From Lachnospiraceae bacterium (GTDB taxonomy: Bacteria; Bacillota; Clostridia; Lachnospirales; Lachnospiraceae): a stretch of DNA of 57,304 bases. The notes beneath the pieces were generated by a model that saw nothing but the letters and a program-made list of their open reading frames with translations, was not told the DNA's origin and made no database searches. Below, piece by piece: positions 23,127-49,779 of this stretch (position 1 is its first letter; each line of letters begins with the position of its first letter). The stretch spans positions 1-57,304 of the forward strand of contig JAJQIL010000081.1 in NCBI GenBank assembly GCA_021199235.1. The letters run 5' to 3'. The translations under genes were made by a program, and so were the position numbers.

Positions 23127-23163
23127 GCCACGCCCCGCGCGAAGCGCATTCAATGGGCGTGGC
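23127..23163. repeat. family A palindrome, copy A1
   Basis: GCCACGCCC pairs with GGGCGTGGC around the family core CGCGCGAAGCGCAT-N4-ATGGG. It is intergenic here, between the GldG-like and DUF4340 genes, and is followed by a tail (GCCTCCGAGC..GCGAGGTGGCGCTTCC) that also occurs after copies A5 and A6. Confidence 0.85.
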
Positions 23164-23255
23164 GACTTGCCTCCGAGCAAAGCGAGGTGGCGCTTCCTCT
23201 GACATGTCCCGCATCGCCTTTTATGCGGGACGCAGACCACGCCCCGCCCTTATTC

Positions 23256-25085
23256 TTATCGTTTTCTCCGGCTCAGCCAGATGCCCAGACCGATGATCAG
23301 AAGGCCGCCCGGAATGATGGCGATCGCTATGATGCTCCAGAAGCTGATGGACGCGGATGTTAATGTCAGATATTCTACACTCACACTCTTGGACGGTACG
23401 GATACCGAGCTTTCCTGATCGCAGGCCCAGCTTAAGGTATTCACGAAAAGCTGATAATTGCCGCCGGATACCATGGAATTTGCAGAGTCATTTACGAGAG
23501 TAGAGGAGGTAAACACTGCAATCTTCGTCTCGGCTTCCGTCGTCTCTTCCTCTTCTGTCTCAGATTCGGACTCTTCTTCAGTTTCGGCCGTGTCTTCCGC
23601 AGCTTCCGTATCATCCTCGGCCGCTTCGGTCTCTTCCTCTGCTTCCTCATCCGCCTCTTCGGTTTCGGTCTCCGTCTCTTCCTCGACCTCCAGCTCATCC
23701 AGCCAGCTTACCAGGTCAACGTCCTCATCCACGGAAGAAGTCTCCTCGAGAAGCTCATCCGTCAGTTCAACTGTCTCCGTGATCAACACGCCGATGTCAA
23801 ACGGTCCGTCGATATCGCCGTCCTCCTCCTCATAGGTCGTCATGTTCTGTACATCGATCTTTGAATAAGAGTTGTCAGAGGTTGTGAGGACACTGCTGAT
23901 GGAAAGGGTATCCCGCGCGTCGTCCGTGGTCTCGATGCCCTGTGCCGCTGACATCAGCACATACGCATTGCCGCCGGAAAGGTCAGACGATACATCCGTG
24001 CTGTTGATATCCGGCACCAGATAGTACGGCACCTGCACATAATAATTGCTGTTGCCCTCAATGACGATGCCGTCCACCAGCTCGGTTCCGTAATATTCCA
24101 GCACCGTATTCAGGTTGGTCAGTTCAGTCGTAACATAATCGGTAATGATGATCGCGCTGCCGCCACGCCGCAGATAATTGATGATCTTCTGCGCCTCTGC
24201 TTCCGAGATATCCGACGTCGGCGAACAGATCAGCAGGCAGTCCGCATCGTCAGGCACTGCATCTGAAGTCACCAGATTGAGTTCTTCCACCTCGATATTT
24301 TCTTTTTCAATCGATGTGGTCAGCGTGTCTGTCAGCTCCAGCTCATTGTGTCCGGTCAGCGTATACAGCTTCGGAATGTCGTCGCTGGTCAGCGCCGCAA
24401 TCGCGCTGGTGATCAGCCCCTCGGCGTCGAAACCGCTGGCCGTGTAAGAGTAATAAGTGTAGCTGAACTCATACTCATACATATCATCGTAGGAAATCAC
24501 CCTGCTGTTGTCCCCGTACACGACGATCACACTGTTATCTGTGAGTGTCTCATCGGTATACTGCGAAGTAAACTGCGGATACAGCACCGGATCCTTCTCG
24601 ATCACAGTCAGATGAGAGGAGAGATCATCATATCGCTCCAGAAGTCTGGATACATAGGAATCCCGGTTGTCATCCTCCAGAATATAGTAAATGGTGACAT
24701 CCTCGGTCAGCCCTTCTACCAGTTCCTTTGTCGTATCCGTCAGCACAGAAAGCTGCTGTCCGCTCAGGTCAATCTGCGTGTACTGCGACGGAATCTGTCC
24801 CACGATCAGATTCACGATCAGCACCGCCACCACCACGATCACGGTCAGCGCGATGCTGTAGGAGCCGTGCCGCAGCTGACGCGTATTTTTTTTCATACGC
24901 GGGTGCTCTTTTTGTTCCTTTTTTCCTTTATTCCGGAGCTTCGGCTCTGCATTGGATGCCGCCTGCTCTTCCGTCCCGGATGCTGTATGACCTTCTGATT
25001 CGGATGCCGTCTGCTCCGGCTGCGCAGATACGGTCAGAGTCTGATCCAGCTCCTGCTTATTCGATTCTTCATTGTTTGAATTCAT
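23256..25085 (-). CDS. GldG-family ABC auxiliary protein
   Basis: A protein of about 609 residues. A charged cytoplasmic N terminus is followed by a membrane segment near residue 80 (IALTVIVVVAVLIVNLIVG), then the GldG/ABC_transp_aux domain (LSVLTDTTKELVEGL, DVTIYYILED, INYLRRGGSAIIITDY). A second membrane segment lies near the C terminus (FWSIIAIAIIPGGLLIIGLGIWL) with an RRKR tail. A Glu/Thr/Ala low-complexity stretch (about residues 475-535) precedes it. ATG with GGAGGT nine bases upstream. In Bacteroidetes the family supports gliding; here no gliding genes exist, so a general envelope or export role is more likely. Confidence 0.9.
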   Translation of the reverse strand: MNSNNEESNKQELDQTLTVSAQPEQTASESEGHTASGTEEQAASNAEPKLRNKGKKEQKEHPRMKKNTRQLRHGSYSIALTVIVVVAVLIVNLIVGQIPSQYTQIDLSGQQLSVLTDTTKELVEGLTEDVTIYYILEDDNRDSYVSRLLERYDDLSSHLTVIEKDPVLYPQFTSQYTDETLTDNSVIVVYGDNSRVISYDDMYEYEFSYTYYSYTASGFDAEGLITSAIAALTSDDIPKLYTLTGHNELELTDTLTTSIEKENIEVEELNLVTSDAVPDDADCLLICSPTSDISEAEAQKIINYLRRGGSAIIITDYVTTELTNLNTVLEYYGTELVDGIVIEGNSNYYVQVPYYLVPDINSTDVSSDLSGGNAYVLMSAAQGIETTDDARDTLSISSVLTTSDNSYSKIDVQNMTTYEEEDGDIDGPFDIGVLITETVELTDELLEETSSVDEDVDLVSWLDELEVEEETETETEEADEEAEEETEAAEDDTEAAEDTAETEEESESETEEEETTEAETKIAVFTSSTLVNDSANSMVSGGNYQLFVNTLSWACDQESSVSVPSKSVSVEYLTLTSASISFWSIIAIAIIPGGLLIIGLGIWLSRRKR

Positions 25086-25142
25086 CAAGTTTATACCTCC
25101 ATTGTACACCGATGGTCTGTAAAAATAATGCAGGCGGCTGCT

Positions 25143-26006
25143 TTAACCCCAGCGCCGTTTCTGGATCGTCTCAACGGTCAGAAACAGTGCGATCACGATT
25201 ACGGATACATAATATACAAGGCCTGTGATGTCAAATATACCGCTGTAAAACTCAGAAAAATGATCCGAAATACTGAACACACTTAAAATTTCCTGGATCA
25301 ACCCTTCATACACACTTGCGTTCGTCACATAGGCGATGATCAGCGCCGCTTCCCCCACGATGCCGCAAATGGCGGCAATGAGGGCGTTTTTTATTATTGA
25401 ATAAATCACCAGCGCCGCGATCAGGACAATCACGAGCAGCACATAAAAGGATCCGGACGCTGTCTCCGGAAAGAACCCGGCGATGCCGTCCATCAGGTAA
25501 AATACAAACAGGACCAGAAATGTCAGTACGGCCGCGATGATCTGGCTTTCCGTTACGGACGAAATAAAAAGTCCGATCGCCAGAAAGCTGCAGCCCATCA
25601 GGAAAAAGCCAAACATCGCCGTATAGGTCTCAGCAAAATAAATTGTTCCGAACTGTGAAAGAATCAGCGGATAAAACACCAGGATCAGCATTGGGATCAG
25701 AAAAATCGTCATCAGTGCCAGAAATTTCCCCACCACTATCTCCGTTACCGTCACCGGCGCGGTCAGCAGAAGCTGGTCGGTCTTCTGCTTCTGTTCCTCA
25801 GCCAGCACACGCATCGTCAGAATCGGCACCGCCACCAGCAGCACGATCAGTACTGCTGAAAGGGTATAGGCAAATTTCGGGTAGGCTGACTGCAGGTTGT
25901 ACGCGGCAAAATAAATACCGGTCACCAGAAGGAAAAGCGCCATAAACACAAAGCCAACCATCGAATTCAAAAGACCTTTGACTTCCTTTTTATATATTGC
26001 CAGCAT
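25143..26006 (-). CDS. ABC-2 type permease (GldF-like)
   Basis: A protein of 287 residues with six to seven predicted membrane segments, starting LAIYKKEVKGLLNSMVGFVFM and including the conserved MRVLAEEQKQKTDQLLLTAPVTVTEIVVGKF loop, which is diagnostic for the GldF/NosY-like ABC-2 group. It lies one base after the stop of the ATPase gene, with GGAGAGGA inside the end of that gene as its ribosome site, so the two are coupled. It probably works with the ATPase, GldG-like and DUF4340 proteins. Confidence 0.92.
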   Translation of the reverse strand: MLAIYKKEVKGLLNSMVGFVFMALFLLVTGIYFAAYNLQSAYPKFAYTLSAVLIVLLVAVPILTMRVLAEEQKQKTDQLLLTAPVTVTEIVVGKFLALMTIFLIPMLILVFYPLILSQFGTIYFAETYTAMFGFFLMGCSFLAIGLFISSVTESQIIAAVLTFLVLFVFYLMDGIAGFFPETASGSFYVLLVIVLIAALVIYSIIKNALIAAICGIVGEAALIIAYVTNASVYEGLIQEILSVFSISDHFSEFYSGIFDITGLVYYVSVIVIALFLTVETIQKRRWG

Positions 26007-26007
26007 A

Positions 26008-27219
26008 TCATTCCTCTCCTTCCTGCGGATTGGCGGCTCCGGAATGATTCTTCAACCCCGGGGCCCCTGCCGTGCCGTATCCACCGCCCGCTGTATTCCC
26101 TGATCTGTCCGTAACAGCTGCGTCCTCCATATCGGCACCGCCTTCCGCATCGCCGTACCCTGTGCCGGCGATCGCATCCATATTTTCATTACTGTCAGCA
26201 GAACTTTCATCATCATCTGCATCCTGTTTTGCAGATTTTCCGCCAAACCCGAAGCGCCGCTTCTTCTTCGGCTTCTGTTCAGCCGGATGATCCTCCGTCA
26301 GTTCAAGGAAGATATCCTCAAGAGATACATGCGTATGCTGCATACGCAGGATCGCTTTTTTCTCCTGCGCACACATATAGAAGATCATTTCCCGCAGATC
26401 ATTGTCTGCTTCTGTTTTTATGACTACATCGCAGGCGCCCGCTTCCGCGGAATCTTTCACATCAAGCGACTGAACTCCCGGCAGAGACTGAAGCATTCTT
26501 CTCGCATCCGTCTCTTTCGCGCGGATCGTCAGCTCCAGAGAACCGGAGCCTCTCATCAGATTCATCAGGTTTTCCGGTGTGTCACTCGCCACCAGCTTTC
26601 CATGCGCGATGATCATGATATGGTCACAGATCGCGCTGATCTCGGAAAGGATATGAGAACTCAAGATGACCGTATGCTTCTGGCCGAGGCTTTTGATCAG
26701 TTCGCGGATCTCGATGATCTGCTTCGGATCCAGTCCGACCATCGGCTCATCCAGAATAATAATATCCGGGTATCCAAGCACCGCCTGTGCCAGCCCGGTC
26801 CTCTGCCGGTAGCCTTTGGAAAGATTGCGGATCAGCCGTCCCTGCATTTCCATCAGACCGGTCGTCTGCATGACCTCAAGGATCATCTGTTCCCGCTCGT
26901 TTTTCGGTATTTTTTTCAGCTCAGCAGCAAACTGCAGATATTCAAGTACCGTCATATCCGGGTACACCGGGGGAATCTCCGGCAGATATCCGATGCATTT
27001 TCTGGCTTCTTCCGGTTCTTCCAGAATATTGTGTCCGTCAATCACCACCTCGCCGGAGGTCGGCGCAATGTATCCGGTCAGAATGTTCATTGTCGTGGAT
27101 TTTCCGGCGCCGTTCGGCCCCAGAAAACCGTAGATCTGTCCTTTTTCTACGGTAAAAGATAAGTCATCCACCGCGGCATTGGAGCCGTAGCGCTTTGTAA
27201 GATGGGTTACTTCGATCAA
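26008..27219 (-). CDS. ABC transporter ATP-binding protein (GldA-like)
   Basis: A protein of 403 residues. The ATPase core has Walker A GPNGAGKST, the signature LSKGYRQRTGLAQ, Walker B IIILDEPMVGLDP and the switch histidine in VILSSHILSE. After the core, residues 215-310 form the regulatory domain usual for GldA-like proteins, and about 90 further residues are a polar, glycine- and aspartate-rich tail (from KPKKKRRFGFGGK onward) with no visible fold. The start is TTG, with GGGAGGGA six bases upstream. It is first in the gld-like operon. Confidence 0.92.
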   Translation of the reverse strand: MIEVTHLTKRYGSNAAVDDLSFTVEKGQIYGFLGPNGAGKSTTMNILTGYIAPTSGEVVIDGHNILEEPEEARKCIGYLPEIPPVYPDMTVLEYLQFAAELKKIPKNEREQMILEVMQTTGLMEMQGRLIRNLSKGYRQRTGLAQAVLGYPDIIILDEPMVGLDPKQIIEIRELIKSLGQKHTVILSSHILSEISAICDHIMIIAHGKLVASDTPENLMNLMRGSGSLELTIRAKETDARRMLQSLPGVQSLDVKDSAEAGACDVVIKTEADNDLREMIFYMCAQEKKAILRMQHTHVSLEDIFLELTEDHPAEQKPKKKRRFGFGGKSAKQDADDDESSADSNENMDAIAGTGYGDAEGGADMEDAAVTDRSGNTAGGGYGTAGAPGLKNHSGAANPQEGEE

Positions 27220-27280
27220 GATAGTCCCTCCCGTTCTGCGTAATCTGTTATCCTGCGGATAATTCGAGCATCAAAATATA

Positions 27281-27350
27281 TGATACCCATCCTCAAGGTC
27301 ATGAACAGGAACGCAAGCGTTCCATTCCTGACCTTTTGTCCCTTGTATCA
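27281..27350. repeat. 70-base nested palindrome
   Basis: TGATAC/GTATCA, AAGGTCA/TGACCTT and GGAACGC-AA-GCGTTCC arms nest inside each other. It lies in the 539-base gap between the divergent GldA-like and Rpn genes. Confidence 0.7.
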
Positions 27351-27462
27351 TTAAATTCTATGGAAAGATTGTGTCCATTCCGAGATAAGAGTGTGTTTAA
27401 ATTGTGGTCTGACAAGCAGGCCCGTTGCATGTTATGTTCAAATCTACGTTTCTAAACTATCA

Positions 27463-27479
27463 TGCCCGCTTCGCGGGCA
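27463..27479. repeat. small GC hairpin
   Basis: TGCCCGC-TTC-GCGGGCA, a perfect seven-pair stem in an AT-rich gap. Confidence 0.6.
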
Positions 27480-27487
27480 CCACTAAT

Positions 27488-27563
27488 TATAAAAGTCGTC
27501 TAATATCCATGCTCTTAGCCATGCAAGCATGGCACGAGCCTGTCTATTGACGACACTTTTATA
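27488..27563. repeat. 76-base nested palindrome
   Basis: TATAAAAGT/ACTTTTATA with CGTC/GACG outer arms, and an inner CCATGC-AA-GCATGG hairpin. Its design matches the 27281-27350 palindrome, with a central GC-AA-GC. No gene is seen in 27220-27598. Confidence 0.65.
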
Positions 27564-27598
27564 GTAAAATATTTTATGTGTTTTTTATTAATATAATG

Positions 27599-27627
27599 TT
27601 GCTTTATTTATGTTGATGTGATATAAT
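27599..27627 (+). promoter_or_regulatory. promoter of Rpn-family gene
   Basis: TTGCTT - 17 bases - TATAAT, leaving a leader of about 125 bases. Confidence 0.7.
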
Positions 27628-27758
27628 TCAGTGGCCATGTGGATTTATATTTCCTTTCTATGCTTTTATTGAAGCAACTTACCCATGAACAAATACAATT
27701 TTATGGTTTGTTAATATTGCAACATCCGGCAATTTATGTTAATGTAAGGAGGACAAGA

Positions 27759-28745
27759 ATGAACAACAAAATGAATCACCTGATACAAAGGATTCACGGC
27801 TACAGGGTAAATCGTAAATACAAAGACCGTCTGTTCCGATATATCTTTAAAGATAAAAAAGATCTACTGGAACTATATAATGCCATCAATGGAACGTCCT
27901 ACACAGACACCTCTGATCTCATTATTACCACGTTGTCTGATGCCATTTATCTTGGTATGAAAAATGACATCGCATTCCTGATTGGAAACTGCCTGAACCT
28001 TTACGAGCACCAAAGTACATGGAACCCCAATATGCCTTTACGCGGTTTGATTTATCTGACAGATATGATCCGGGCATACATTGAGGCAAATCATTACAAC
28101 CTGTACTCTTCGAAGCAGATTCCTCTTCCGTTTCCCAAGTACATTGTATTCTATAACGGAGAAACGGATACCAGAGATTGTGAAGAGCTTTGCCTGTCCT
28201 CTTCCTTTCCAAAAACACAAAAGGGTCTGCCCGCACTCGAATGCCGCGCAACTCTGATAAACATTAATTACGGGCATAATCAGGAGCTTTTAAATAAAAG
28301 CAAACGGCTGTCCGATTACTCTTATTTTATATATCAGGTTCGCTGTCATCTGGATCAGGGCTATTCTCAGCAGGAAGCGATTGATCTGGCGGTAGATGAG
28401 TGTATTGAAAGCGGAATCCTTCAGGACATCCTTACCACTCATCGTGCGGAGGTAAAGAATATGCTGCTAACTACCTTTAACGAAAAAGAATACAAAAAAA
28501 TGCTCCGAAAAGAAGCCCGCGAAGAAGGTCTTGAAGAAGGCCGTAAAAAAGGCCTTGAAGAGGGACGTGCTGAAGGTCGTGCTGAAGGTCGCGCTGAAGG
28601 TCGCGCTGAAGGTCGCGCTGAAGCATTCAGAAAATGTCAGATACTGTACGGAATGCTGCTCACAGATGGTCGAAATGATGATTTGGCCAAATGTACAACC
28701 GATGAAAATTATATGAAACAGTTACTGAAAGAATATGGTTTATAA
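27759..28745 (+). CDS. Rpn family protein (PD-(D/E)XK nuclease/putative transposase)
   Basis: A protein of 328 residues of the Rpn/YhgA-like group, related to recombination-promoting nucleases. The N-terminal half has YKDRLFRYIFKDKKDLLELYNAINGT and the nuclease-like DIAFLIGNCLNLYEHQSTWNPNMPLR region. The C-terminal part has repeated EEGLEEGR/AEGRAEGR, as is common in this family. AAGGAGG lies six bases before the ATG. Two bases separate its stop from the shikimate kinase start. The gene is AT-rich and preceded by palindromes, which suggests an acquired segment. Nuclease action is inferred from the family. Confidence 0.85.
   Translation: MNNKMNHLIQRIHGYRVNRKYKDRLFRYIFKDKKDLLELYNAINGTSYTDTSDLIITTLSDAIYLGMKNDIAFLIGNCLNLYEHQSTWNPNMPLRGLIYLTDMIRAYIEANHYNLYSSKQIPLPFPKYIVFYNGETDTRDCEELCLSSSFPKTQKGLPALECRATLININYGHNQELLNKSKRLSDYSYFIYQVRCHLDQGYSQQEAIDLAVDECIESGILQDILTTHRAEVKNMLLTTFNEKEYKKMLRKEAREEGLEEGRKKGLEEGRAEGRAEGRAEGRAEGRAEAFRKCQILYGMLLTDGRNDDLAKCTTDENYMKQLLKEYGL
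28563..28622. repeat. 12-base tandem repeat, five copies
   Basis: Five units of GGTCGCGCTGAA type encode repeated GRAE near the C terminus of the Rpn-family protein. The last three copies are identical, so length change by slippage is plausible. Confidence 0.85.
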
Positions 28746-28747
28746 TT

Positions 28748-29251
28748 ATGAATGAAAATATCTTTTTGATCGGATTTATGGGCGCCGGAAAATCTACCGT
28801 AGCGCGTGCACTGCGGGATGAGTATGGAATGCGTCTCATTGAAATGGATGAACAGATCGAAGCGCAGGAAGGGCGCACGATCTCGCAGATCTTTGTGGAG
28901 GATGGCGAAGACTGTTTCCGTGCGCTGGAAACGGCCCTGCTTAAAGGGCTTGAATGCACGAAAAATACTGTGGTCTCCTGCGGCGGCGGTGTCCCGATGC
29001 GTGAGGAAAATGTAGCGGCAATGCGCCGCAGCGGAAAGATCATCTACCTCTGTGCCGCTCCCGAAACTATTTATGACCGTGTGAAAAATGCTCACAATCG
29101 CCCGCTTCTGGAAGGGAATATGAATGTGGAGTATATCGAAGCCCTGATGAAAAAACGGCTTCCAAAGTATCTGGAAGCCGCTGATGCTACGGTTGAGACG
29201 GATGGAAAGTCCGCGTTAAGTATTTGTAATGAAATCCGTTCCGTTATGTAA
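28748..29251 (+). CDS. aroK: shikimate kinase
   Basis: A protein of 167 residues, standard length. The Walker A motif FMGAGKST, the FRALETALL motif after EDGEDC, the SCGGGVPMREEN motif and the lid arginine in NRPLLEG identify it. It phosphorylates shikimate with ATP in the pathway to aromatic amino acids. It begins two bases after the Rpn gene and has only a weak ribosome site, so it may depend on coupling with that unusual upstream gene. No other aro gene is in the window. Confidence 0.93.
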   Translation: MNENIFLIGFMGAGKSTVARALRDEYGMRLIEMDEQIEAQEGRTISQIFVEDGEDCFRALETALLKGLECTKNTVVSCGGGVPMREENVAAMRRSGKIIYLCAAPETIYDRVKNAHNRPLLEGNMNVEYIEALMKKRLPKYLEAADATVETDGKSALSICNEIRSVM

Positions 29252-29265
29252 TGTCTGCTGAACTC

Positions 29266-29287
29266 CGACCGAAGCGGCAGCGGGGAT
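29266..29287. repeat. family B fragment
   Basis: On the minus strand this reads CCCGCTGCCGCTTCGGTCGG, the 5' module of family B, but the hairpin part is missing. Confidence 0.5.
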
Positions 29288-29318
29288 GTGGAGTGGAATG
29301 TGGGAGTCCGCAGTACCT

Positions 29319-30167
29319 TTACCTGGCGCCTGCTATCCAGCTTTCCATCCAGGTATGTACAAGCTGCGGCCATACGGCGACCTCACTCTGCGTCCAGCTG
29401 CCATCTGCTGAGCCGGTCAGACGGGTGCCAAGCGACAGGCCGTGCCCGCCCTTCTCAAATATATGGATCTCTGTCGGAATATGGTGCTGCACCAGCGCGT
29501 TTGCCAGAAGCAGCGTATTCTGCACCGGTACACAGTCATCCTCATATGTATGCCAGATAAAGGTGCGCGGCACCTGATCTCCGACGCATAATTCCAGAGA
29601 AAGCTCTTCTTTTTTTGCCTCGTAATCTTCGCCGAGCAGCTTGCGGAACGAACCCTCATGCGCATATTCTCCCGATGTAATGACCGGGTAGCACAGGATC
29701 ATTGCATTCGGCTGAAGGTCGGCTGCCGAAACAGCCTTTGCCCCATCCGCTTCCTCTGACAATGCCTCCGCCAGAAAATCCCGATTCCAGAACATAGCGT
29801 AGTTCGCCGCCAGATGTCCGCCCGCAGAGAAGCCGGAGACAACGATTTTTTTCCTGTCTATATGCCACTCATCCGCGTTTTCACGGATCACAGCTACTGC
29901 ACGGCCAAGCTCCAGAAGCGCAGTCGGATATACGGCCGGAGCCACGGAGTAGCGCAGTACCGCTGCATGATAGCCCATAGACAGATACTGTACCGCTATG
30001 ATATCCGCCTCGCGGTCTGAGGTAAACTCGTAGCCGCCGCCCGGGCAGATGACCACAATCGGGCGGGTTTTGATCGGAATCTCCGGCGAATCCTCAAAAA
30101 GGAAAAGATGAAGCGCCGCATATTCCATGGAATTTTTGTTTTTGATGTCAATCGTCTCGTACATCAT
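29319..30167 (-). CDS. alpha/beta hydrolase (esterase)
   Basis: A protein of 282 residues of the BD-FAE/acetyl-esterase-like group. The oxyanion segment VVICPGGGYEF comes first, then the nucleophile serine in VSGFSAGGHLA, the aspartate in HTYEDDCVPVQN and the histidine in EKGGHGLSLG. There is no signal peptide, so it is cytoplasmic and would act on small acylated sugars or esters that are taken up. GAGGAG lies seven bases before the paired ATG-ATG start. It is transcribed alone. The substrate is not known. Confidence 0.9.
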   Translation of the reverse strand: MMYETIDIKNKNSMEYAALHLFLFEDSPEIPIKTRPIVVICPGGGYEFTSDREADIIAVQYLSMGYHAAVLRYSVAPAVYPTALLELGRAVAVIRENADEWHIDRKKIVVSGFSAGGHLAANYAMFWNRDFLAEALSEEADGAKAVSAADLQPNAMILCYPVITSGEYAHEGSFRKLLGEDYEAKKEELSLELCVGDQVPRTFIWHTYEDDCVPVQNTLLLANALVQHHIPTEIHIFEKGGHGLSLGTRLTGSADGSWTQSEVAVWPQLVHTWMESWIAGAR

Positions 30168-30260
30168 CGTGTTTCTCCTCGTATATCCAAACTGAATTTT
30201 GATTCATTACGATGTTTTCACAAAAGTCTGAAGATGTAATCCTGTTATGTCTCCGTTGAT

Positions 30261-30297
30261 AAACGGATAGAGGAATCCCTTTCTTCCCTATCCGTTT
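30261..30297 (-). terminator. hairpin after PrsA-like gene
   Basis: AAACGGATAG and CTATCCGTTT form a perfect ten-pair stem 24 bases past the stop. The T-run is short, so this is a probable rather than certain terminator. Confidence 0.55.
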
Positions 30298-30320
30298 CTA
30301 CGTTTCCGTCTGTCCGGATT

Positions 30321-32013: not shown

Positions 32014-32042
32014 ATTATAATCTTTTTCATCGCATATCGCAA
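32014..32042 (-). promoter_or_regulatory. promoter of PrsA-like gene
   Basis: TTGCGA - 17 bases - TATAAT, giving a leader of about 150 bases. Confidence 0.75.
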
Positions 32043-42892: not shown

Positions 42893-43767
42893 CTCTTCCG
42901 GTCCTCCTCCGTGCCTTCTCCTCGCAAATCGTTTCCTCCATAGGCAGTATTGTAAGCAGTATTGTTTTTCATGTCCTGTCCCGATTCACTATCCCGCTTT
43001 CCTGCATCCTGCCCCGATCTGCCTCCCCGGCTTCCGGCGGCCTGCTCCGCTTCGTCTTTATTTTCCGTCATATCGAAAAAAAGCTGCTCCAGACTCCTTC
43101 CGTCCGCTGCCAGCTCATCGCGCGTCAGATTCGCCTGAATCTTTCCTTCCTTCATAATGATGGTCCGGTCCCAGAGCATATCCACACTGTCAATCATATG
43201 GGTACTGACCAGGATCGTCTTCCCCTCCTGCCGCATTTCCTCAATCAGAAGCTTTAATTCCTTGATCGCGTGCGGATCCAGCCCGATCATCGGCTCATCC
43301 AACAGCAGCATCTGCGGATCCGGCAGCAGTCCCAGGCAGATATTCAGCTTCTGCTGCATTCCCTTCGAGAGCTCGTCACCGAACTTTTTACGTTTGTCGG
43401 TCAGCTCAAACCGCTCAAACAGTTCTTCGATTCTCGCTTTATAGCCTCGCCCTGCGCTTCCGCCCAGCTTATACGCCCGTGCGATAAATTCCATATGCTC
43501 GGACACCGTCAGGTTCGGATACAGCGAGGGCATCTCCGGTATGTAGCCGAGCAGGCGACGTGCCTCCGGTGTTTTATTAGAAAAATCCTTTACTGTTATC
43601 TCGCCCTCATATTTCAGAAAACCAATCATTGCCTTGATGATCGTACTTTTCCCGGCACCGTTCGGTCCGAGCAAAACAGTCACTGTCCCCGGATCCAGAT
43701 GAAAACTCAGATCGTCGCAGGCCAGTACCTTGCCGTATTTCTTGGTCACATGAGATACATTCAACAT
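42889..43767 (-). CDS. ABC transporter ATP-binding protein
   Basis: A protein of 292 residues with Walker A GPNGAGKST, signature LSKGMQQKLNIC, Walker B MLLLDEPMIGLDP and switch histidine VSTHMIDSV. The last 60 residues are a polar, Gly/Asp/Asn-rich tail with no fold. It has its own promoter and is coupled to the permease-CPBP gene by a four-base overlap, so it is the energy unit for that exporter. Confidence 0.93.
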   Translation of the reverse strand: MLNVSHVTKKYGKVLACDDLSFHLDPGTVTVLLGPNGAGKSTIIKAMIGFLKYEGEITVKDFSNKTPEARRLLGYIPEMPSLYPNLTVSEHMEFIARAYKLGGSAGRGYKARIEELFERFELTDKRKKFGDELSKGMQQKLNICLGLLPDPQMLLLDEPMIGLDPHAIKELKLLIEEMRQEGKTILVSTHMIDSVDMLWDRTIIMKEGKIQANLTRDELAADGRSLEQLFFDMTENKDEAEQAAGSRGGRSGQDAGKRDSESGQDMKNNTAYNTAYGGNDLRGEGTEEDRKR

Positions 43768-43823
43768 TTTTCTCTTCTCCTCTAATGTATTCCCGCCTTT
43801 ACAGCAGGTATTTTTCTTTTCTC

Positions 43824-43852
43824 ACTATAAATGGACACTGCATACAGAGCAA
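43824..43852 (-). promoter_or_regulatory. promoter of the ABC/CPBP unit
   Basis: TTGCTC - 17 bases - TATAGT, about 57 bases before the ATPase start. It separates this unit from the GntR operon upstream. Confidence 0.65.
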
Positions 43853-43898
43853 CCAGAAAATTCTGATCTTTTCCTTAAGATTATGTAAAACTCATAAC

Positions 43899-44624
43899 TC
43901 AGTTCACCTGCTGCGTCCGCATAAGTCCCCAGGCTCCTCCGAGCGCCAGAAGAAACGCCAGTGCTCCCACGACCGGCCACAAACCGGACGGAACCGCCGT
44001 GATCACACCCGCAATCCCCCGAAACAGTCCCGGAATTTCCTTCTCCGGCTCAAAAATCGCATCCATCACCCACTGCATTCCAAACCAGAACATCATCCAT
44101 AGGATGAAAAATACAATTCTCACGCTCTGCCCGAACCGGTTGCACAGCGTCCCAAAAAGTGCGGCTGCCGCAGGCAGGCCAGGCACAGCCGCTATACCAT
44201 ACCGCAACAGGATCGGGAAGATGGCAAATTCCGGTTCCTCCATCGGATACAACCGGACATTCAGTGCGTCCTCCGCAGCAGCCAGCGCCAGTACAATTAC
44301 CATTCCGCATGCGCTCAGGATCAGATGATTTAAAAGTACAGACACAAAGAATTCTTTTCTTGTACAGCCAAGAGAAATCTGTGTGTGAAACTGCGACGTA
44401 TAATCCTCCCCAAAATTCGCAAACAAAAATACGGTGCCCGCAAAAGCCGCAAGAATAGTCGCAAGCGGAAACGTCCCCTCTCCTTCATCAATTACAAACC
44501 TCATCAAAATGGCGAGAAGGAGCATACCCGCCAGATAGAAGCCCAGTTCGAACAGCAAAACTGTCCGGCATTTGTTTTCACTGATCTGAAACTGATTTTT
44601 GATTGCTTTTTTCATCGTGATCAT
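43899..44624 (-). CDS. ABC-2 type membrane protein (permease)
   Basis: A protein of 241 residues with about six hydrophobic helices (VLLFELGFYLAGMLLLAILM, LILSACGMVIVLALAAAE, IVFFILWMMFWFGMQW, PVVGALAFLLALGG). The loop TSQFHTQISLGCTRKEFF is typical of short ABC-2 permeases found in GntR-led operons. GGAGAGGA lies seven bases before the ATG; an open extension upstream runs into a family A palindrome and has no ribosome site. It probably pairs with the preceding permease and the ATPase of the same operon. Confidence 0.85.
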   Translation of the reverse strand: MITMKKAIKNQFQISENKCRTVLLFELGFYLAGMLLLAILMRFVIDEGEGTFPLATILAAFAGTVFLFANFGEDYTSQFHTQISLGCTRKEFFVSVLLNHLILSACGMVIVLALAAAEDALNVRLYPMEEPEFAIFPILLRYGIAAVPGLPAAAALFGTLCNRFGQSVRIVFFILWMMFWFGMQWVMDAIFEPEKEIPGLFRGIAGVITAVPSGLWPVVGALAFLLALGGAWGLMRTQQVN

Positions 44625-44642
44625 ATTGAAATCCTCTCCGTA

Positions 44643-44675
44643 GTCCCGCCCCGCGCACAGCGCATCAAAATGGGC
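44643..44675. repeat. family A palindrome, copy A2 (decayed)
   Basis: It keeps the core CCCCGCGCACAGCGCAT-N4-ATGGGC, but the right arm ends in TTTT and no longer pairs fully. It lies between the two permease genes, just past the stop-proximal end of the first. Confidence 0.65.
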
Positions 44676-44677
44676 TT

Positions 44678-45430
44678 TTATCTGCGCACTTCTATTTTTC
44701 GCAGTCCCCTCAGACTCACCGCTCCGGCAGCCGCATAAAGGGCAAGACCGATCACCGGCATCAGGGGAGAACGCATCCATTTCAGAACATTCTGATTAAA
44801 AATCGATGCCTCACCCTCCAGCCCCGCCATCAGACCGCAGAAAAAGGCAAAGCCCCCGGCAAACACGGCATTGAAAATCATTCCGAGAGTTCTGTTTCGT
44901 ATGGATACCATGCCAAAATAGATTCCGATCAGAGCCGCAAATGTCTCAGCGGCAAAGATCAGCGGCAGCCATTCCATCCAAAATGTTCCCACCCCAAACA
45001 CGGAAAAAAGCCCGGCGGTTCCAAACACAGCCAGTATCACCACGCCCTCACAGAGCCACATGCTCAAAGCAGTCAGCCGTCTCGTGACGTTCATGGAAAT
45101 CATCGTCGCAATGATATTGTTAAAAAGGACTGTCGGGCAGATCCATACGATTACGCCGCCCGCAAGCAGCAGGTAAGGCGGAAAATCTTCCAGCAGCGCT
45201 GCGGCCATCTTCCATGACAGAGGCCAGCCACCGCCCGCTTCTCCTCTCACAATCGGCACGAACAGATCCCAGATTACCGTGACGAGCAGCGCGTATCCAA
45301 TCATCTGCAGGCAGCGTCCGCCAAAATAGCAGACTATGCGCAGTGTGCGGGACGTTCCCACGATTTCTTTTTTTGTCGTATTCTTCCTTCTGTTTCGTGA
45401 CTCCGCCCCAAAATGATTCTCAGCATTCAT
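44678..45430 (-). CDS. membrane protein, probable ABC permease subunit
   Basis: A protein of 250 residues with a basic N terminus (ESRNRRKNTTKK) and about six membrane segments. The second-half loop (NNIIATMISMNVTRRLTALSMWLCEG) recalls ABC-2 permeases, in which a TMGxxR-like loop precedes a helix. No strong family match is claimed beyond that. It lies between the ATPase and the second permease of the GntR operon, and a family E palindrome is 40 bases before its start. Confidence 0.75.
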   Translation of the reverse strand: MNAENHFGAESRNRRKNTTKKEIVGTSRTLRIVCYFGGRCLQMIGYALLVTVIWDLFVPIVRGEAGGGWPLSWKMAAALLEDFPPYLLLAGGVIVWICPTVLFNNIIATMISMNVTRRLTALSMWLCEGVVILAVFGTAGLFSVFGVGTFWMEWLPLIFAAETFAALIGIYFGMVSIRNRTLGMIFNAVFAGGFAFFCGLMAGLEGEASIFNQNVLKWMRSPLMPVIGLALYAAAGAVSLRGLRKIEVRR

Positions 45431-45470
45431 TTGCTATTTCCCCCCACTCACATCCCAGTATTCTCCACTC

Positions 45471-45492
45471 GTAACGGTTCAGTAATAGTTAC
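45471..45492. repeat. family E palindrome, copy E5 (short)
   Basis: GTAACGGT - 6 bases - ATAGTTAC, a shortened, imperfect copy in the leader of the permease gene. Confidence 0.6.
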
Positions 45493-45498
45493 CTCCGC

Positions 45499-46518
45499 TC
45501 AATGCTCCTCGCCGCACAGCGCCACAAACAGCTTCTGCAGACTCACCTTCTGAACTGTCACAGCCGCGTTCCGCGCGAAGCGCATTTGTATGGACGCGGC
45601 GTTCTGCCGCTCATTTTTTCCTGCATCGTCCGGCTTCGGCTCTAAAATCGTCACGCTCTTGCTGTGGCCCAGCCGTTCTGCGTGGTACTGTGTGTACCCC
45701 GCGGTCGCGCGATCCACCTCATCCTCACGTCCGCTCACGCACCAGGCACGCTCCAGCAGTTCCTCCAGATTCTCTTTTAAAAGGATTTTCCCTTCATCCA
45801 GCAGGATCACTTCCTCAAAAATGTCCGCTGCTTCCTCAATAATATGAGTCGAGATCACAAACGTCCGGCCGGTCTCAGTAAATTCCTCCAGCAGAAGCTG
45901 ATAAAACTTCTCCCTCGCGACAACATCCAGCCCCGCAACCGGTTCATCCAGAAACGTGAACTCCGCCCCGCTCGCGAGCGCCACAACAATCGTCACCATT
46001 GAAAGCATACCTTTGGACAGCTTACTGATCTTTTTCTTCGTATCCAGCCCAAACTCCGCTACAAGGTGATCCGCCATCTTCTGATTCCAGTGCGGAAGGA
46101 ACAGTGAAGCGATCTTCAGATACTCTTTCACCTTCATCGTATTTGCGCTGTTTCCGACCATCTGATTCAGCTCCCGCGAAAAGCACAGATGCGAGAGCGC
46201 TTTCGGATTTTCCCAGACCGGCTCACGGACAACCGCAGACAGCGGTCTCATTTTTACGATATTCGATCCGTTCCCGGCACCGCTGCTCTTCCCCTGCAAA
46301 CCATCCGGCCTCGCATCGTCAGGAGAAACCTCCACTGTCACTGTCCCCTCCGTCGCCGGATTCTGCGAGCTTAAAATAGACAAAAGCGTCGTCTTTCCGG
46401 CACCGTTGCGCCCGATCAGACCGTAGATCTTGCCCTGCTCCAGTTCCAGATCAATACCGTGAAGCACTTCCTTCTCCCCGTATCGCTTCACGACCCCGGA
46501 TGCCACAATCTTGCTCAT
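45499..46518 (-). CDS. ABC transporter ATP-binding protein (YtrB-like)
   Basis: A protein of 339 residues. Walker A is IGRNGAGKTT, the signature is weak (SKLSKGMLSMVTI), Walker B is EFTFLDEPVAGLDV and the switch histidine is in VISTHIIEEAADIFEE. Insertions occur after residue 60 (DDARPDGLQGKSSGAG) and near the C terminus, where a family A palindrome supplies AASIQMRFARNAA. It is the second gene behind a GntR regulator, as in ytr-type operons that respond to cell-wall antibiotics. GGAGGAG precedes the ATG. Confidence 0.92.
   Translation of the reverse strand: MSKIVASGVVKRYGEKEVLHGIDLELEQGKIYGLIGRNGAGKTTLLSILSSQNPATEGTVTVEVSPDDARPDGLQGKSSGAGNGSNIVKMRPLSAVVREPVWENPKALSHLCFSRELNQMVGNSANTMKVKEYLKIASLFLPHWNQKMADHLVAEFGLDTKKKISKLSKGMLSMVTIVVALASGAEFTFLDEPVAGLDVVAREKFYQLLLEEFTETGRTFVISTHIIEEAADIFEEVILLDEGKILLKENLEELLERAWCVSGREDEVDRATAGYTQYHAERLGHSKSVTILEPKPDDAGKNERQNAASIQMRFARNAAVTVQKVSLQKLFVALCGEEH
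45563..45600. repeat. family A palindrome, copy A3, inside a gene
   Basis: GCCGCGT pairs with ACGCGGC around the core CGCGCGAAGCGCAT-N4-ATGGA. It is translated in frame in the ABC ATPase gene. Its arms differ from the other copies on both sides. Confidence 0.8.
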
Positions 46519-46559
46519 ACCATTTTCTCCTCCATATTCCCCCGTATTTATCCCGCTGT

Positions 46560-46586
46560 GTAACTGTTCAGTACCTTCACAGTTAC
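46560..46586. repeat. family E palindrome, copy E2
   Basis: GTAACTGT - 11 bases - ACAGTTAC with perfect arms and loop TCAGTACCTTC, 41 bases before the ABC ATPase start. Confidence 0.8.
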
Positions 46587-46613
46587 GCAGGGAAAATCCA
46601 TTTAAAATCGTGT

Positions 46614-46667
46614 CTCCGCTGCCGCTTCGGTCGGCGCTAAGCGAACGTCCACTGGACGTTCAGCGCC
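46614..46667. repeat. family B palindrome, copy B3
   Basis: CTCCGCTGCCGCTTCGGTCGG leads into GGCGCT/AGCGCC and GAACGTCCA/TGGACGTTC stems. The inner stem differs from B1 and B2 at several positions on both arms, but pairing is kept. Confidence 0.8.
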
Positions 46668-46691
46668 GCGATGGGATTTTCCCTTGCAATA

Positions 46692-46738
46692 TTTACGTTT
46701 CATACGCACCTCGCAGCAAGTGCGAGGTACTGTCCTGA
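46692..46738 (-). repeat. family C stem-loop, copy C2
   Basis: A minus-strand unit matching 41 of 47 bases of C1, with stem GTACCTCGCA/TGCGAGGTGC. It starts four bases after the stop of the GntR gene. Confidence 0.75.
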
Positions 46739-46742
46739 ATAA

Positions 46743-47150
46743 TTATCCCGCTGCTTTATTATTCTCTTTCGTATAAGGATTTCCCTCGGCGCCGTCTTCC
46801 TGTATCATCATGATCAGTTCTTCTCTGGTGATGCCAAGGCTGGCTGCCTCCGCCATCAGGCGTTTTACATAGTCATCATAGAAGTTTTTCTTCCGCTTCT
46901 CCATGATCTTCTTTTTCGCTCCCGACTGAACGAACATCCCGATTCCCCTTTTTTTGTAAAGGATACCCTCATCTACGAGCAGGTTCACGCCTTTCGCCGC
47001 CGTTGCCGGGTTGATCGAGTAAGCTTTCGCCAGCTCATTCGTGCTGGGCACCCGCTCTTCCTCCAGAAGAATATCCCGCAGGATGTCGTTCTCTATCATT
47101 TCCTTAATCTGAATGTAAATGGATTTTTCCTGTGAAAGGATTTCATTCAT
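46743..47150 (-). CDS. GntR family regulator (YtrA-like)
   Basis: A protein of 135 residues, the short YtrA type. A winged helix-turn-helix of the GntR family occupies residues 8-78 (IYIQIKEMIENDILRDIL, RVPSTNELAKAYSINPATAAKGVNLLVDEGILYKKRGIGMFV) and a brief helical tail replaces the usual effector domain. Such regulators head ABC operons induced by envelope stress. It should repress its own promoter at the perfect palindrome overlapping the -10 box. AAAGGAAG lies seven bases before the ATG. Confidence 0.93.
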   Translation of the reverse strand: MNEILSQEKSIYIQIKEMIENDILRDILLEEERVPSTNELAKAYSINPATAAKGVNLLVDEGILYKKRGIGMFVQSGAKKKIMEKRKKNFYDDYVKRLMAEAASLGITREELIMMIQEDGAEGNPYTKENNKAAG

Positions 47151-47169
47151 TTACCCACTTCCTTTCATA

Positions 47170-47206
47170 GCCCCGTCCTGCGCGCAGCGCATTTATATGG
47201 GCGGGG
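47170..47206. repeat. family A palindrome, copy A4
   Basis: CCCCGTCC pairs with GGGCGGGG (one G-U) around the core TGCGCGCAGCGCAT-N4-ATGGG. It lies in the leader of the GntR gene, downstream of the promoter. Confidence 0.8.
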
Positions 47207-47233
47207 TATTATCATACGCCAATATATGTTCGT

Positions 47234-47259
47234 TGGTTCATTACTTGTGTAATGAACCA
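47234..47259. promoter_or_regulatory. GntR operator
   Basis: TGGTTCATTAC - TTGT - GTAATGAACCA, a perfect 26-base palindrome overlapping the -10 box of the GntR promoter. Its position fits direct repression. Confidence 0.85.
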
Positions 47260-47284
47260 TATCACCAAAGATATATTCTGTCAA
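47256..47284 (-). promoter_or_regulatory. promoter of the GntR-ABC operon
   Basis: TTGACA - 17 bases - TATGGT on the minus strand, about 106 bases before the GntR start. Confidence 0.8.
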
Positions 47285-47344
47285 GAAGTTTTTCACAAGT
47301 TTCCCATATTAACCGAGTAGGGAGACTTGCCCGGCTCTGCGCAT

Positions 47345-47383
47345 AAAAAAACCGTTGGACCTTCATTTATCATCCAACGGTTT
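47345..47383 (-). terminator. intrinsic terminator
   Basis: AAACCGTTGGA/TCCAACGGTTT, a perfect 11-pair stem with a 13-base loop, then TTTT on the minus strand. It ends the transcript of the small gene at 47446-47610. Confidence 0.9.
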
Positions 47384-47445
47384 CGACATATATAAGCGGT
47401 TCATTTATCTTACAAAAATGCCATAATTCTGCCTTTCATCAATTA

Positions 47446-47610
47446 TCAACTCTGTGCATAATTGCCCGCTAAAATCCTTTCCCGAAGTTCTCTGCCTGCT
47501 TCTCTTGCATCTGAATCCGCTACACCAAATCTTCTTTTTTCTTCTATGTCTATCAGTTTTTCTCTCAGTTGTAATTGCATTTCTCTTTGGTTAAAAGCAT
47601 TGATATCCAT
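47446..47610 (-). CDS. small protein of unknown function (54 aa)
   Basis: MDINAFNQREMQLQLREKLI begins a highly charged, helical protein ending RERILAGNYAQS. No membrane segment, signal or cysteine is present. AGGGAG lies about 11 bases before the ATG. It has an almost perfect promoter close by and a strong terminator 60 bases after it, so it is an independent unit. In size and composition it resembles small antitoxin or accessory proteins, but no toxin gene is adjacent and no family is recognised. Confidence 0.65.
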   Translation of the reverse strand: MDINAFNQREMQLQLREKLIDIEEKRRFGVADSDAREAGRELRERILAGNYAQS

Positions 47611-47628
47611 GACGACAAGATCTCCCTG

Positions 47629-47657
47629 ATTATACTACCTCTATATTCGATAATCAA
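47629..47657 (-). promoter_or_regulatory. promoter of the 54-residue gene
   Basis: TTGATT - 17 bases - TATAAT, only 18 bases before the start codon. The expected transcript start lies inside or just before the ribosome site, so the leader would be very short. Confidence 0.75.
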
Positions 47658-47698
47658 CCTAAACAAGAAAATGAACCATATCCAAATGTATTCTTTTT

Positions 47699-47725
47699 GT
47701 AACTGTTCCGTTCCTTAATAGTTAC
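47699..47725. repeat. family E palindrome, copy E4
   Basis: GTAACTGT - 11 bases - ATAGTTAC (one G-U pair), between the ABC_ATPase gene stop and the promoter of the small gene. Confidence 0.7.
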
Positions 47726-47736
47726 TTCCTTTCTTG

Positions 47737-49779
47737 CTACAGCATCCGATACCGCGCCAGACATGCCAAGATTTCCTGCCGTCTCACTGCTGCGGCAGCG
47801 CCCGCCCCGTAATTTTTCGGAGTGACAGACAGGATCCCTTCTTTCTCGATTTTCTGTGCCGCCTCCTCCGCGAGGGCGGCGGCAGTCTTTTTGCCGTCTG
47901 CCATGCGGTCTAAAATGTACTGCATCAGATAAGCCAAAGCAGCGGTCTGGCTTTCATCGACGATCTGCTCCAGATAGCGCAGATCAATCTCCGTCTTGTC
48001 CAGACTTAAAGTGTCCCATCCGTGCGTGCGCGCCTTTTCGATCTGTTTTGCGCGAACCGGCTTTTTCAGCCAGGAAGCAGAATTCGCGGCAATGCTGACC
48101 TGATGTTCCGCATTTTTCTGCTGCCCGCAGATCTCCTTTGCGCGCGCCGTGACGTCTTTTGCCACATAGCAGTCCATCTGCAGCACAGTGTCCGCTACTG
48201 CCAGATAATCGCCCGAACTGCCCACGACCAGAATCGTCGATACGCCAAGGTCTTCATACAGACTGCGAATGCTGCGGACGAACGGCCTGATCGGCTCCTT
48301 TTCATCGGAGACAAGCTGCGCCATGCGCTCATCACGCACCATAAAATTGGTCGCCGAAGTATCTTCATCAATCAAAAGAAGATGGCTTTCCGCCGCCAGC
48401 GCTTCGACTGTGTTCGCCGCCTGGGATGTGCTGCCGCTTGCGTTTTCCGTGGAAAACCGGGCCGTGTCTGCTCTGGTTGGCAGGTTATTGATAAACATGG
48501 AAATATCCGTCTCATGGATACAGCGTCCCTCTTCCGCGCGCAGCTTGAACGCACTTTGATCCGTGATGACCAGCTCCCGGCCGTCCCCGGCAATATGATT
48601 GTAAACGCCGCGTTCCAGCGCCTTTAAAAGAGTTGATTTCCCGTGAAATCCGCCGCCCGCGATCACCGTGACGCCCTTTTTGATCCCCATGCCGCGCACG
48701 CTTCCGCGATGCGGCAATTCCAGCGTCACCGCCAGAGATTCCGGGCTTTCGAATTTTACTGCAGCCCCGCCCTGCGCACTGCGCATTTTCATGGGCGGGG
48801 CGTCCTGCCCTCGCCGGGTGGCATCCTCGCCCTCCGGGCGGGATATCCGCTGAGCTTGGCGAGGGGGCGCTTCCATACTTTTCATCGGCCGCTGCGACAC
48901 GCCGCTCTCCCGCGGCAGTACCGAACCGTCCGCCACAAAAGCCACAAGCCCCAAACCGTCCAGTGCGTCCCGTATGTACTGCTGGTCGTCCGCCAGCTCT
49001 ACGACTGCATCAAGCTCCCGCTTCATCTGCGGATTAAAATGAAACGTTTTCTCCGCCGCCTCCGGCAGGAAATCAAAGAGGATCTTCTCCAGCTCGCCTG
49101 CCGCGATCGTGCGTCCGAACGCCGGAAATCCGACCTCGATCCGCGCCTCTATTTCATTTGCAGAAATGCACATCGCGGTGCGCTCCAGGATTTCCTGCCC
49201 TGCACGGCAGGCCGTGACGAGACCGCTCTTTCCCGAGCCATGTCCCGCGCGGCCACTATTTCCATTATAATCCCGCGCCTGCTCGTCTCTTCTGCCTCTG
49301 TCCTCTCTGTTTTCACGGTTTCCTCTGTAGTTCTGACCGGATTCCGGTCTTCCGCCCTGTCGTCCGGATCGTGCCGAAAAGGCTTCTGTGTCCTGCCGAA
49401 ATGCCGGGCGTGACGTCGATTCCGCACGCAGATTCCGGTGCAGACGCCGCAGCAGATAATCCTCCGCCGCAATCCGGCGGTGGCGGTTTTCAAAATACTG
49501 TGGCGCGATATTTCCCCGATTATGATAGATGATCCGCACCCGCGACGGCGTCGCGAACGGATCTCCCTGCACATGGTCGATTGCAAGGCGGTAGGCGCCA
49601 AAGTCGTATTCGCCCTCCAGCACCTTGTACGCCTTGTATCCTTTGTGGTCAATTTCTCTTAACTGTCTTCTTAAGTCGTGCCCCGCGCGCAGCGCATCTG
49701 CATGGGCACGACGTTCTGCCGCCGAGCCTGACGAGGGGGCGTTTCCATTCTCCGCCTGTGAACGCATCATTTTTCCCAC
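47737..49779 (-). CDS. ABC-ATPase (PF09818-like) P-loop protein
   Basis: A protein of 680 residues, against about 570 for the family. The family N terminus appears only at LRRQLREIDHKGYKAYKVLEG, after about 30 residues partly made of a translated family A palindrome (RRAHADALRAGHD). Residues 125-185 are an Arg/Gly/Glu/Asn-rich disordered stretch (RGNRENREDRGRRDEQ). Walker A is GGGFHGKSTLLKALE near 375, Walker B is HLLLIDEDTSATNFM near 470. A second translated palindrome lies near 330. The cytoplasmic role of the family is unknown. The start overlaps the oxidoreductase gene upstream by 13 bases, so it is probably cotranslated. Confidence 0.88.
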   Translation of the reverse strand: MGKMMRSQAENGNAPSSGSAAERRAHADALRAGHDLRRQLREIDHKGYKAYKVLEGEYDFGAYRLAIDHVQGDPFATPSRVRIIYHNRGNIAPQYFENRHRRIAAEDYLLRRLHRNLRAESTSRPAFRQDTEAFSARSGRQGGRPESGQNYRGNRENREDRGRRDEQARDYNGNSGRAGHGSGKSGLVTACRAGQEILERTAMCISANEIEARIEVGFPAFGRTIAAGELEKILFDFLPEAAEKTFHFNPQMKRELDAVVELADDQQYIRDALDGLGLVAFVADGSVLPRESGVSQRPMKSMEAPPRQAQRISRPEGEDATRRGQDAPPMKMRSAQGGAAVKFESPESLAVTLELPHRGSVRGMGIKKGVTVIAGGGFHGKSTLLKALERGVYNHIAGDGRELVITDQSAFKLRAEEGRCIHETDISMFINNLPTRADTARFSTENASGSTSQAANTVEALAAESHLLLIDEDTSATNFMVRDERMAQLVSDEKEPIRPFVRSIRSLYEDLGVSTILVVGSSGDYLAVADTVLQMDCYVAKDVTARAKEICGQQKNAEHQVSIAANSASWLKKPVRAKQIEKARTHGWDTLSLDKTEIDLRYLEQIVDESQTAALAYLMQYILDRMADGKKTAAALAEEAAQKIEKEGILSVTPKNYGAGAAAAVRRQEILACLARYRML
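48764..48801. repeat. family A palindrome, copy A5, inside a gene
   Basis: GCCCCGCCC pairs with GGGCGGGGC around TGCGCACTGCGCAT-N4-ATGGG. Translated in frame as APPMKMRSAQGGA, the same frame as copy A3. The family tail follows for about 70 bases. Confidence 0.85.
49675..49712. repeat. family A palindrome, copy A6, inside a gene
   Basis: GTCGTGCCC pairs with GGGCACGAC around CGCGCGCAGCGCAT-N4-ATGGG. It lies in the N-terminal extension of the ABC_ATPase protein, read in a different frame from A3 and A5. The family tail (GCCGCCGAGC..GAGGGGGCGTTTCC) follows. Confidence 0.85.

Follow-up and report, generated by a model that had tools for sequence, protein, structure and literature searches.

How can a hairpin with matched arms lie within protein-coding genes without breaking their reading frame? 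This question is raised by a 57,304-nt stretch of DNA from a Lachnospiraceae bacterium (GCA_021199235.1, contig JAJQIL010000081.1; hereafter the window, contig C157 of a 3.47 Mb draft genome), in which a first-pass annotation had pointed out six copies of a palindromic element, family A (A1 to A6). Taken as a whole, the results described below make it highly likely that family A represents the GA-cis repeat in a coding form specific to one lineage, and that it is a non-autonomous mobile element.

Family A Belongs to the GA-cis Family and Has a Covarying Hairpin

The core pattern of family A matches exactly the six places already reported, all on the + strand, with no match on the other strand, and a similar pattern has no match in 40 Markov-simulated windows. 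As had been described, all six copies are antisense to the surrounding minus-strand genes. Each arm was said to be matched by its own complement, which holds for five of the six copies (9/9 pairs), whereas A2 pairs at 4/9 and is a broken copy. The family had been thought to lack any description; however, Rfam already holds it as GA-cis RNA (RF02987), and A1 and A6 are above the curated gathering cut-off of that entry. Across the whole genome, RF02987 gives 59 matches, 52 of them above the cut-off, and none in 14 control genomes. The genome-wide model scan that had been proposed was performed with a model built from 31 copies (R1), with which 150 of 1788 candidates were scored, and it gave at least 99 matches at E ≤ 0.1, at least 78 of these at E ≤ 0.001; given the number of candidates scored, the count is likely a lower bound.

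We examined the covariation of the arms across 81 distinct copies. In an alignment fitted to the model structure, which makes the counts lean towards that structure, 94.9% of the cells are paired, compared to 75.5% in shuffles, and none of 500 shuffles reaches this value. Changes on both sides are seen in 18 of the 21 pairs, and the signal vanishes when the pairing is slid by 1–3 columns. The arms already vary together in a MAFFT alignment made before the model. The compensatory change suspected from the window copies is confirmed on this larger set. The outermost stem pair is G-C in 78/80 cells and the next pair is C-G in 63/80. Two hairpins make up the element: the 5′ one has matched arms that vary freely, and the 3′ one contains tandem G-A mismatches. 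Its length is 75–78 nt, or 114–117 nt when it includes a nested palindrome. Chance similarity was considered as an explanation and is ruled out by the Markov simulation and the covariation. In this genome, GA-cis behaves as a palindromic element that is mobile.

Close Relatives Lack the Element at Several Sites

A comparison of orthologous sites had been suggested, and eight sites (A2 to A6 and three on contig C59, C59a to C59c, in genes of glycosyl hydrolase 2, WhiA and a UvrD-type helicase) were compared in three relatives, G008, G013 and G014. Five of the eight, namely A5, A6 and the three on contig C59, are empty in G008; the A6 site is also empty in G014 and G013, and C59b in G014. In the relatives with empty sites, the flanks are 84–98% identical. 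At the A5 site, G013 and G014 carry related forms, and A3 has a longer form in G008 and lacks its hairpin in G013 and G014. At A5, A6 and sites elsewhere, the comparison thus turned out opposite to the result that was to refute the first-pass reading. The expected presence or absence was not seen at A2 and A4, which are filled in all three relatives; in G014, the A2 copy is joined in tandem by a full one.

The inserts at the five G008-empty sites, and in hemB compared to G014, measure 114, 75, 78, 114, 75 and 78 nt, each being a multiple of three and equal to the model span minus 5 nt. The coding inserts are thus larger than the 12–13 residues first assigned to them: measured against the empty G008 sites, A6 comprises 25 codons and A5 comprises 38 codons. 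No consistent target-site duplication was found at the aligned empty sites or in 30 flanks read by eye, although a few flanks match.

The A4 hairpin pairs at 9/9 in its own genome and in G008, at 6/9 in G014 and at 5/9 in G013. This decay in place, albeit a single case, fits a hairpin that is kept by selection on copying and not by a function at the site, and the pairing of the arms may be important for copying.

Other short repeats were also observed. Contig C59 carries further ones at 5724–5809, 2107–2191, 11601–11652 and 17376–17453 of locus L304; G008 and G014 lack the first one at the corresponding position, which suggests that several palindromic families may be active. An M32 peptidase gene carries a compound insert with a further palindrome.

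Most Copies Lie in Frame within Genes

The first-pass annotation had placed three copies in coding sequence, and A3, A5 and A6 are indeed found there. Genome-wide, we analysed 82 copies, i.e., 82 R1 matches from which a duplicate (L051 3589) and a weak match (L009 2940) were removed and to which A2 and A4 were added. By a codon score trained on 18 open reading frames (ORFs) of the window, 47 of the 82 are in frame within genes. Open frames that reach 60 codons or more beyond the copy in both directions span 50 of 81 copies (one being left out for its short flanks), compared to 1078 of 1539 random windows from the same loci (70%). The length is a multiple of three in 42 of these 50 copies and in 19 of the 31 outside open frames (P 0.03). 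Among the 47 coding copies, 39 are antisense (P 1e-6) and 32 share one strand and phase, where 10.9 would be expected from open frames (P 8e-11). Within the open frames of housekeeping genes, the element carries no stops.

The coding copies have 43 distinct host frames; a Pfam scan of 39 of these, plus the host of A3, found domains in 38 of the 40 ORFs, including DnaX, HemB, HemD, PurL, PriA, MutL, Mfd and WhiA, as well as alanine racemase, a class A penicillin-binding protein and glycerate kinase. Read in the dominant frame, the 78-nt unit gives a 26-residue peptide with the consensus eEtPPRcASAAdRaahaENAaRLagA (21 copies), in which P5 and A20 are invariant and N19 is present in 19 of the 21. 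The likeness to Rickettsia palindromic elements (RPE) that had been noticed is backed by the empty sites, the codon-multiple lengths, the frame use and the copy number.

A similar habit is seen in matches from other genomes, 82 of 88 of which were used and divided by record names and scores into own-genus-like loci (60) and other Lachnospiraceae (22): 41 of the 60 own-genus-like copies are coding, 22 of them in the dominant frame. The 35 copies of the own genome that were not called coding have an antisense gene start within 60 nt in 16 cases and a sense gene in seven.

Repeated and compound forms were also seen. In two genes of relatives, GH35 in G021 and HGD-D in G065, the 78-nt unit forms head-to-tail triplets of the 26-residue repeat; these tandem triplets lie at about 2640–2878 of L376 and 1650–1888 of L377. 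Compound inserts in L045 (5580–7247) and L050 have an extra palindrome; it codes for LRSALNNRPLDDQRP (or LRSALNDRPLDDQRP), to which the GA-cis peptide is fused.

On the evidence of these frames, the inserts are most likely translated as an extra loop of 25–39 residues in housekeeping enzymes. We considered whether they could instead be spliced from the RNA or bypassed by the ribosome, leaving the proteins without the inserts. Hairpins can promote ribosome bypassing, and housekeeping enzymes are among the hosts, with the HemB insert lying just past an invariant stretch, CMCEYTSHGHCG. If the insert were skipped, however, neither its codon-multiple length, nor the absence of stops, nor one dominant frame would be necessary, which makes splicing or bypassing very unlikely.

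The HemB Insert

The insert in hemB is present in the own genome and in G008 and is missing in G014 and G013, which are 98 and 97% identical, respectively, over the C-terminal half. It lies a few residues past the CMCEYTSHGHCG stretch, which is invariant in 20/20 sequences. In an AlphaFold model of HemB (20 sequences; mean predicted local distance difference test score, pLDDT, 72), the insert, at residues 158–185, has a pLDDT below 50, as do residues 11–45, 246–265 and 270–274. This single model suits a flexible loop without proving it.

At the hemB loci L246–L250, the loop after the conserved cysteine stretch has other extra sequence in several relatives, and in G001 it carries a GA-cis copy of the nested type; this loop is an insertion hot spot. 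Such additional sequence at the hemB site would be compatible with ancestral variable protein loops that resemble one another by chance and are not insertions. Several relatives have empty sites, however, which contradicts this explanation, as does the occurrence of the element at at least 78 places (E ≤ 0.001) with covarying arms; we regard it as virtually eliminated.

Sister Forms in Other Lachnospiraceae Stay outside Genes

We looked for the repeat in other genomes. In a set of 60, 15 of the 36 genomes of the genus are positive (own genome included), 12 with at least eight copies and three with one or two, and none of the 24 genomes of other families in the order is positive. In a scan of 391 genomes of the class, matches above the cut-off were found in four (own genome included), all of the same family, with one weaker match elsewhere. 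In a pattern scan of named genomes, every R1-confirmed match among those listed comes from a record under the name Lachnospiraceae, Clostridiales, Eubacterium sp. MSJ-21, Roseburia sp. 1XD42-69, Petralouisia muris or Butyrivibrio sp. WCD3002. Carriage by phages was tried as an explanation and rejected: among 15 pattern matches in viral contigs, one is a weak model match (31.9 bits).

The set from other genera comprises 66 copies (57 of 62 matches, after removal of duplicates and one edge match, plus 9), of which 64 were analysed, with five near-identical copies of one genome counted separately. Open frames span three of these 64 copies, compared to 692 of 1214 random windows (57%), the copy length modulo three is even (23, 22, 21), and by the codon score none of 22 copies is coding. 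The five nearly identical copies (L331, L337, L343, L348 and L354) suggest a recent spread in that genome.

In a survey of 52 of the 57 copies, a sense gene starts within 60 nt of the 3′ end in 35, with a peak at 16–25 nt, mostly with an AGGAGG-like ribosome-binding site between the copy and the gene; an antisense gene does so in five. A common regulon was considered and rejected, since the ten of the 35 downstream genes that were scanned have unrelated functions (NusA, FliD, Mur ligase, transporters). Because these sister forms in related Lachnospiraceae stay outside genes, beside ribosome-binding sites, a single clade has most likely acquired the coding habit as a derived trait.

The position of these sister copies is compatible with a cis-regulatory or small RNA acting on neighbouring transcripts. 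The filing of GA-cis as an RNA in Rfam and the strong covariation also agree with this, and so do A1, A2 and A4, which lie 18–20 nt upstream of start codons, albeit of antisense genes, as well as the retention of A2 and A4 in three relatives. However, the copies of the own genome are mostly within genes and antisense to them, several of their sites are empty in close relatives, the ten downstream genes elsewhere share no function, and two of the three A4 orthologues show a decayed hairpin. A regulatory RNA is therefore an improbable explanation of family A.

A Proposed Mechanism: a Mobile Hairpin Tolerated as a Peptide

A hairpin moved as a repetitive extragenic palindromic (REP) element by a REP-associated tyrosine transposase (RAYT), or by another IS200/IS605-like Y1 transposase, would account for hairpins without a consistent target duplication. 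The corresponding domain, PF01797, occurs in nine of the 12 element-rich genomes of the genus and in nine of the 24 others, but this difference reaches only P 0.075. The search for a RAYT-type transposase that had been recommended did not bear out such an origin: PF01797 has no match in G013 (100% complete, 33 copies), G031 (53 copies) or G028 (65% complete, eight copies), and its hits in the own genome are two fragments, one with a stop. In addition, a GTAG motif within ten bases of an end is present in only five of 31 copies. The RAYT reading is not supported, and a Y1 transposase does not offer a simple explanation; we consider it rather unlikely that either moves the element.

We favour a non-autonomous coding repeat, for which the following mechanism can be proposed. 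An enzyme acting in trans would recognise the folded hairpin, as DNA or RNA, and place copies of it at new sites, leaving no target duplication. Survival would fall to those copies that preserve the reading frame and encode a peptide that is tolerable and mostly flexible, and the ribosome would read through the insert to make a loop of about 25–39 residues. Once inserted, the hairpin would be free to decay, so that compensatory changes would build up only in the lineage of still-mobile copies.

Several points weigh against this proposal. No mobilising enzyme was found, and the direction from intergenic to coding, although the most likely one, is drawn from the distribution of the element and not from an element tree. 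Not all sites are polymorphic, since A2 and A4 are filled in three of three relatives and A5 in two of three, and C59a and C59c in G014 leave 8 and 29 nt between the flanks, not 5. By the span-minus-5 rule, eight of the 50 open-frame copies are not codon multiples. The frame recovery of the codon score (94.8% over 194 pieces) was measured on its training ORFs, the open-frame rates used in the frame test derive from 16 non-coding copies, and the translation of the inserts is deduced from sequence. Finally, the assemblies are metagenome-assembled genomes, in which errors are possible; the occurrence of the same hemB insert in two species argues against an assembly error.

The Copies of the Window and Their Neighbours

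The coordinates of the six copies and of the genes beside them are given in Table 1. A1 lies between the antisense genes 23256–25109 and 21757–23106. From the hairpin arm to the ATG of the antisense gene, the distance is 20 nt for A1, 18 nt for A2 and 19 nt for A4. The insert of A6 lies seven codons downstream of the probable ATG of the PF09818 gene, which has matches in all 36 genomes of the genus, some of them short. The GC-rich tail that A1, A5 and A6 were said to share is canonical in A1 and A6, whereas the tail of A5 has a second palindrome nested in it (48786–48877); a similar insert (peptide SADIPPEGRGCHPARAE) is found in 114- and 117-nt versions elsewhere.

Two further repeats were seen in the window. 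One of about 186 bp (46559–46745), between two minus-strand genes, has many copies in G008, G013 and G014, and an intergenic one of about 100 bp (50852–50952) has many copies in G008 and G014.

Table 1. Family A copies in the window and the genes that host or follow them.
Feature	Position	Strand	Description	Support
A1	23123..23201	+	full element, hairpin and tail	RF02987 49.5 bits; R1 74.4 bits
A2	44639..44697	+	degenerate, 4/9 arm pairs	R1 10.7 bits, E 1.8
A3	45559..45625	+	hairpin and tail stub, in C-terminal part of antisense ABC-ATPase gene	R1 30.4–30.7 bits
A4	47166..47216	+	hairpin alone	R1 20 bits
A5	48760..48878	+	tail with nested second palindrome; 114-nt in-frame insert (38 codons) in PF09818 ABC-ATPase gene	
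A6	49671..49750	+	full element; 75-nt in-frame insert (25 codons) in PF09818 gene	RF02987 42.9 bits
Host gene of A5 and A6	47737..49779	-	ABC-class ATPase: PF09818, PF20446, MRB1590_C	Pfam
Host gene of A3	45499..46518	-	ABC transporter ATPase	Pfam ABC_tran
Gene downstream of A1	21757..23106	-	DUF4340	Pfam; start codon
Gene downstream of A2	43899..44624	-	FtsX-like permease	24.2 bits, slightly below Pfam cut-off 25.5; start codon
Gene downstream of A4	46743..47150	-	GntR-type regulator	Pfam; start codon

Relation to Known Coding Palindromes

Family A shares the sequence and structure model of RF02987, with the 52 matches above the cut-off reported above. RF02987 is filed as an RNA, whereas the copies in this clade are mostly antisense to and within genes and have a codon-multiple length. 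In the literature searched, the term GA-cis was met only once, in one line of a table of the Rfam 15 article (PMC11701678).

Palindromic elements of Rickettsia (RPE) and Wolbachia (WPE) are described as repeats of 100–150 bp found in frame in genes and between genes (PMC10969869, PMC2229807, PMC3767692). Like RPE, family A is a palindromic repeat in frame within unrelated protein genes. Judged from the descriptions of RPE, family A differs from RPE and WPE in its phylum, its size (75–117 nt) with two hairpins, its freely varying matched arms and its intergenic sister forms in related genera. We know of no mobiliser of RPE or WPE.

A superfamily of CGTC-tagged REPs has been reported to include RPE-4 and RPE-6; its members are described as having an 8–9 bp stem, no known dedicated transposase, and copies in repair genes that code for 20–30 residues (PMC3733652). 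Compared with that description, family A has a similar 8–9 bp stem and intragenic copies, and likewise no dedicated transposase is known for it. On the reverse strand, the foot of the hairpin carries CGTC, or the TGTC variant described for these REPs (PMC3733652), in 34 of 55 distinct copies of other Lachnospiraceae. In contrast, GATC, GGTC and AGTC, not a CGTC, TGTC or CCTC tag, are the commonest feet in the own genome. The first stem pairs are G-C and not A-T, an inner hairpin replaces the 4–5 nt loop, and the copies are single or head-to-tail and not mainly head-to-head dimers. Unlike GTAG REPs moved by RAYT, family A has no consistent GTAG tag.

Miniature inverted-repeat transposable elements (MITEs) such as ERIC, the 107-bp form of Correia, and YPAL are described with open frames and in-frame fusions (PMC2229807). 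Family A resembles them as a small non-autonomous repeat with in-frame fusions, and resembles Correia, as described there, in having one form in genes and a related form that is not (PMC2229807). Unlike MITEs, it has no consistent target duplication, and a terminal inverted repeat is not apparent in the alignment.

Coding palindromes have been described for Rickettsia, Wolbachia, an archaeon, and CGTC and GTAG REPs (PMC10969869, PMC2229807, PMC3767692, PMC2996958, PMC3733652). In the literature searched on GA-cis, coding palindromes, selfish palindromes with bypassing, and palindromic or in-frame inserts of Lachnospiraceae, GA-cis is not described as coding or mobile, and no coding palindrome is reported for Lachnospiraceae. 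What is new here is the finding of coding and non-coding forms of one family in related genera, and of an Rfam RNA family that behaves as a mobile coding repeat.

These forms may represent the birth of a coding palindrome. In one gut clade, an intergenic RNA-like repeat would have become a whole-codon element with an open frame on the reverse strand; the hairpin would be selected for mobility and the antisense strand for a harmless peptide, and the element would for this reason have settled within genes, housekeeping genes included, at more than half of its sites. We regard this scenario as evenly poised between right and wrong. Two cautions follow: a family catalogued as RNA can be a mobile DNA repeat, and the predicted proteins of this clade include non-ancestral peptides that were inserted. 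The best-known cases of protein-coding palindromes are those of Rickettsia and Wolbachia, which are intracellular and in which the origin of such palindromes is hard to study. With coding and non-coding forms in related gut bacteria, and with filled and empty sites, the route by which a selfish hairpin comes to be tolerated in proteins is directly testable.

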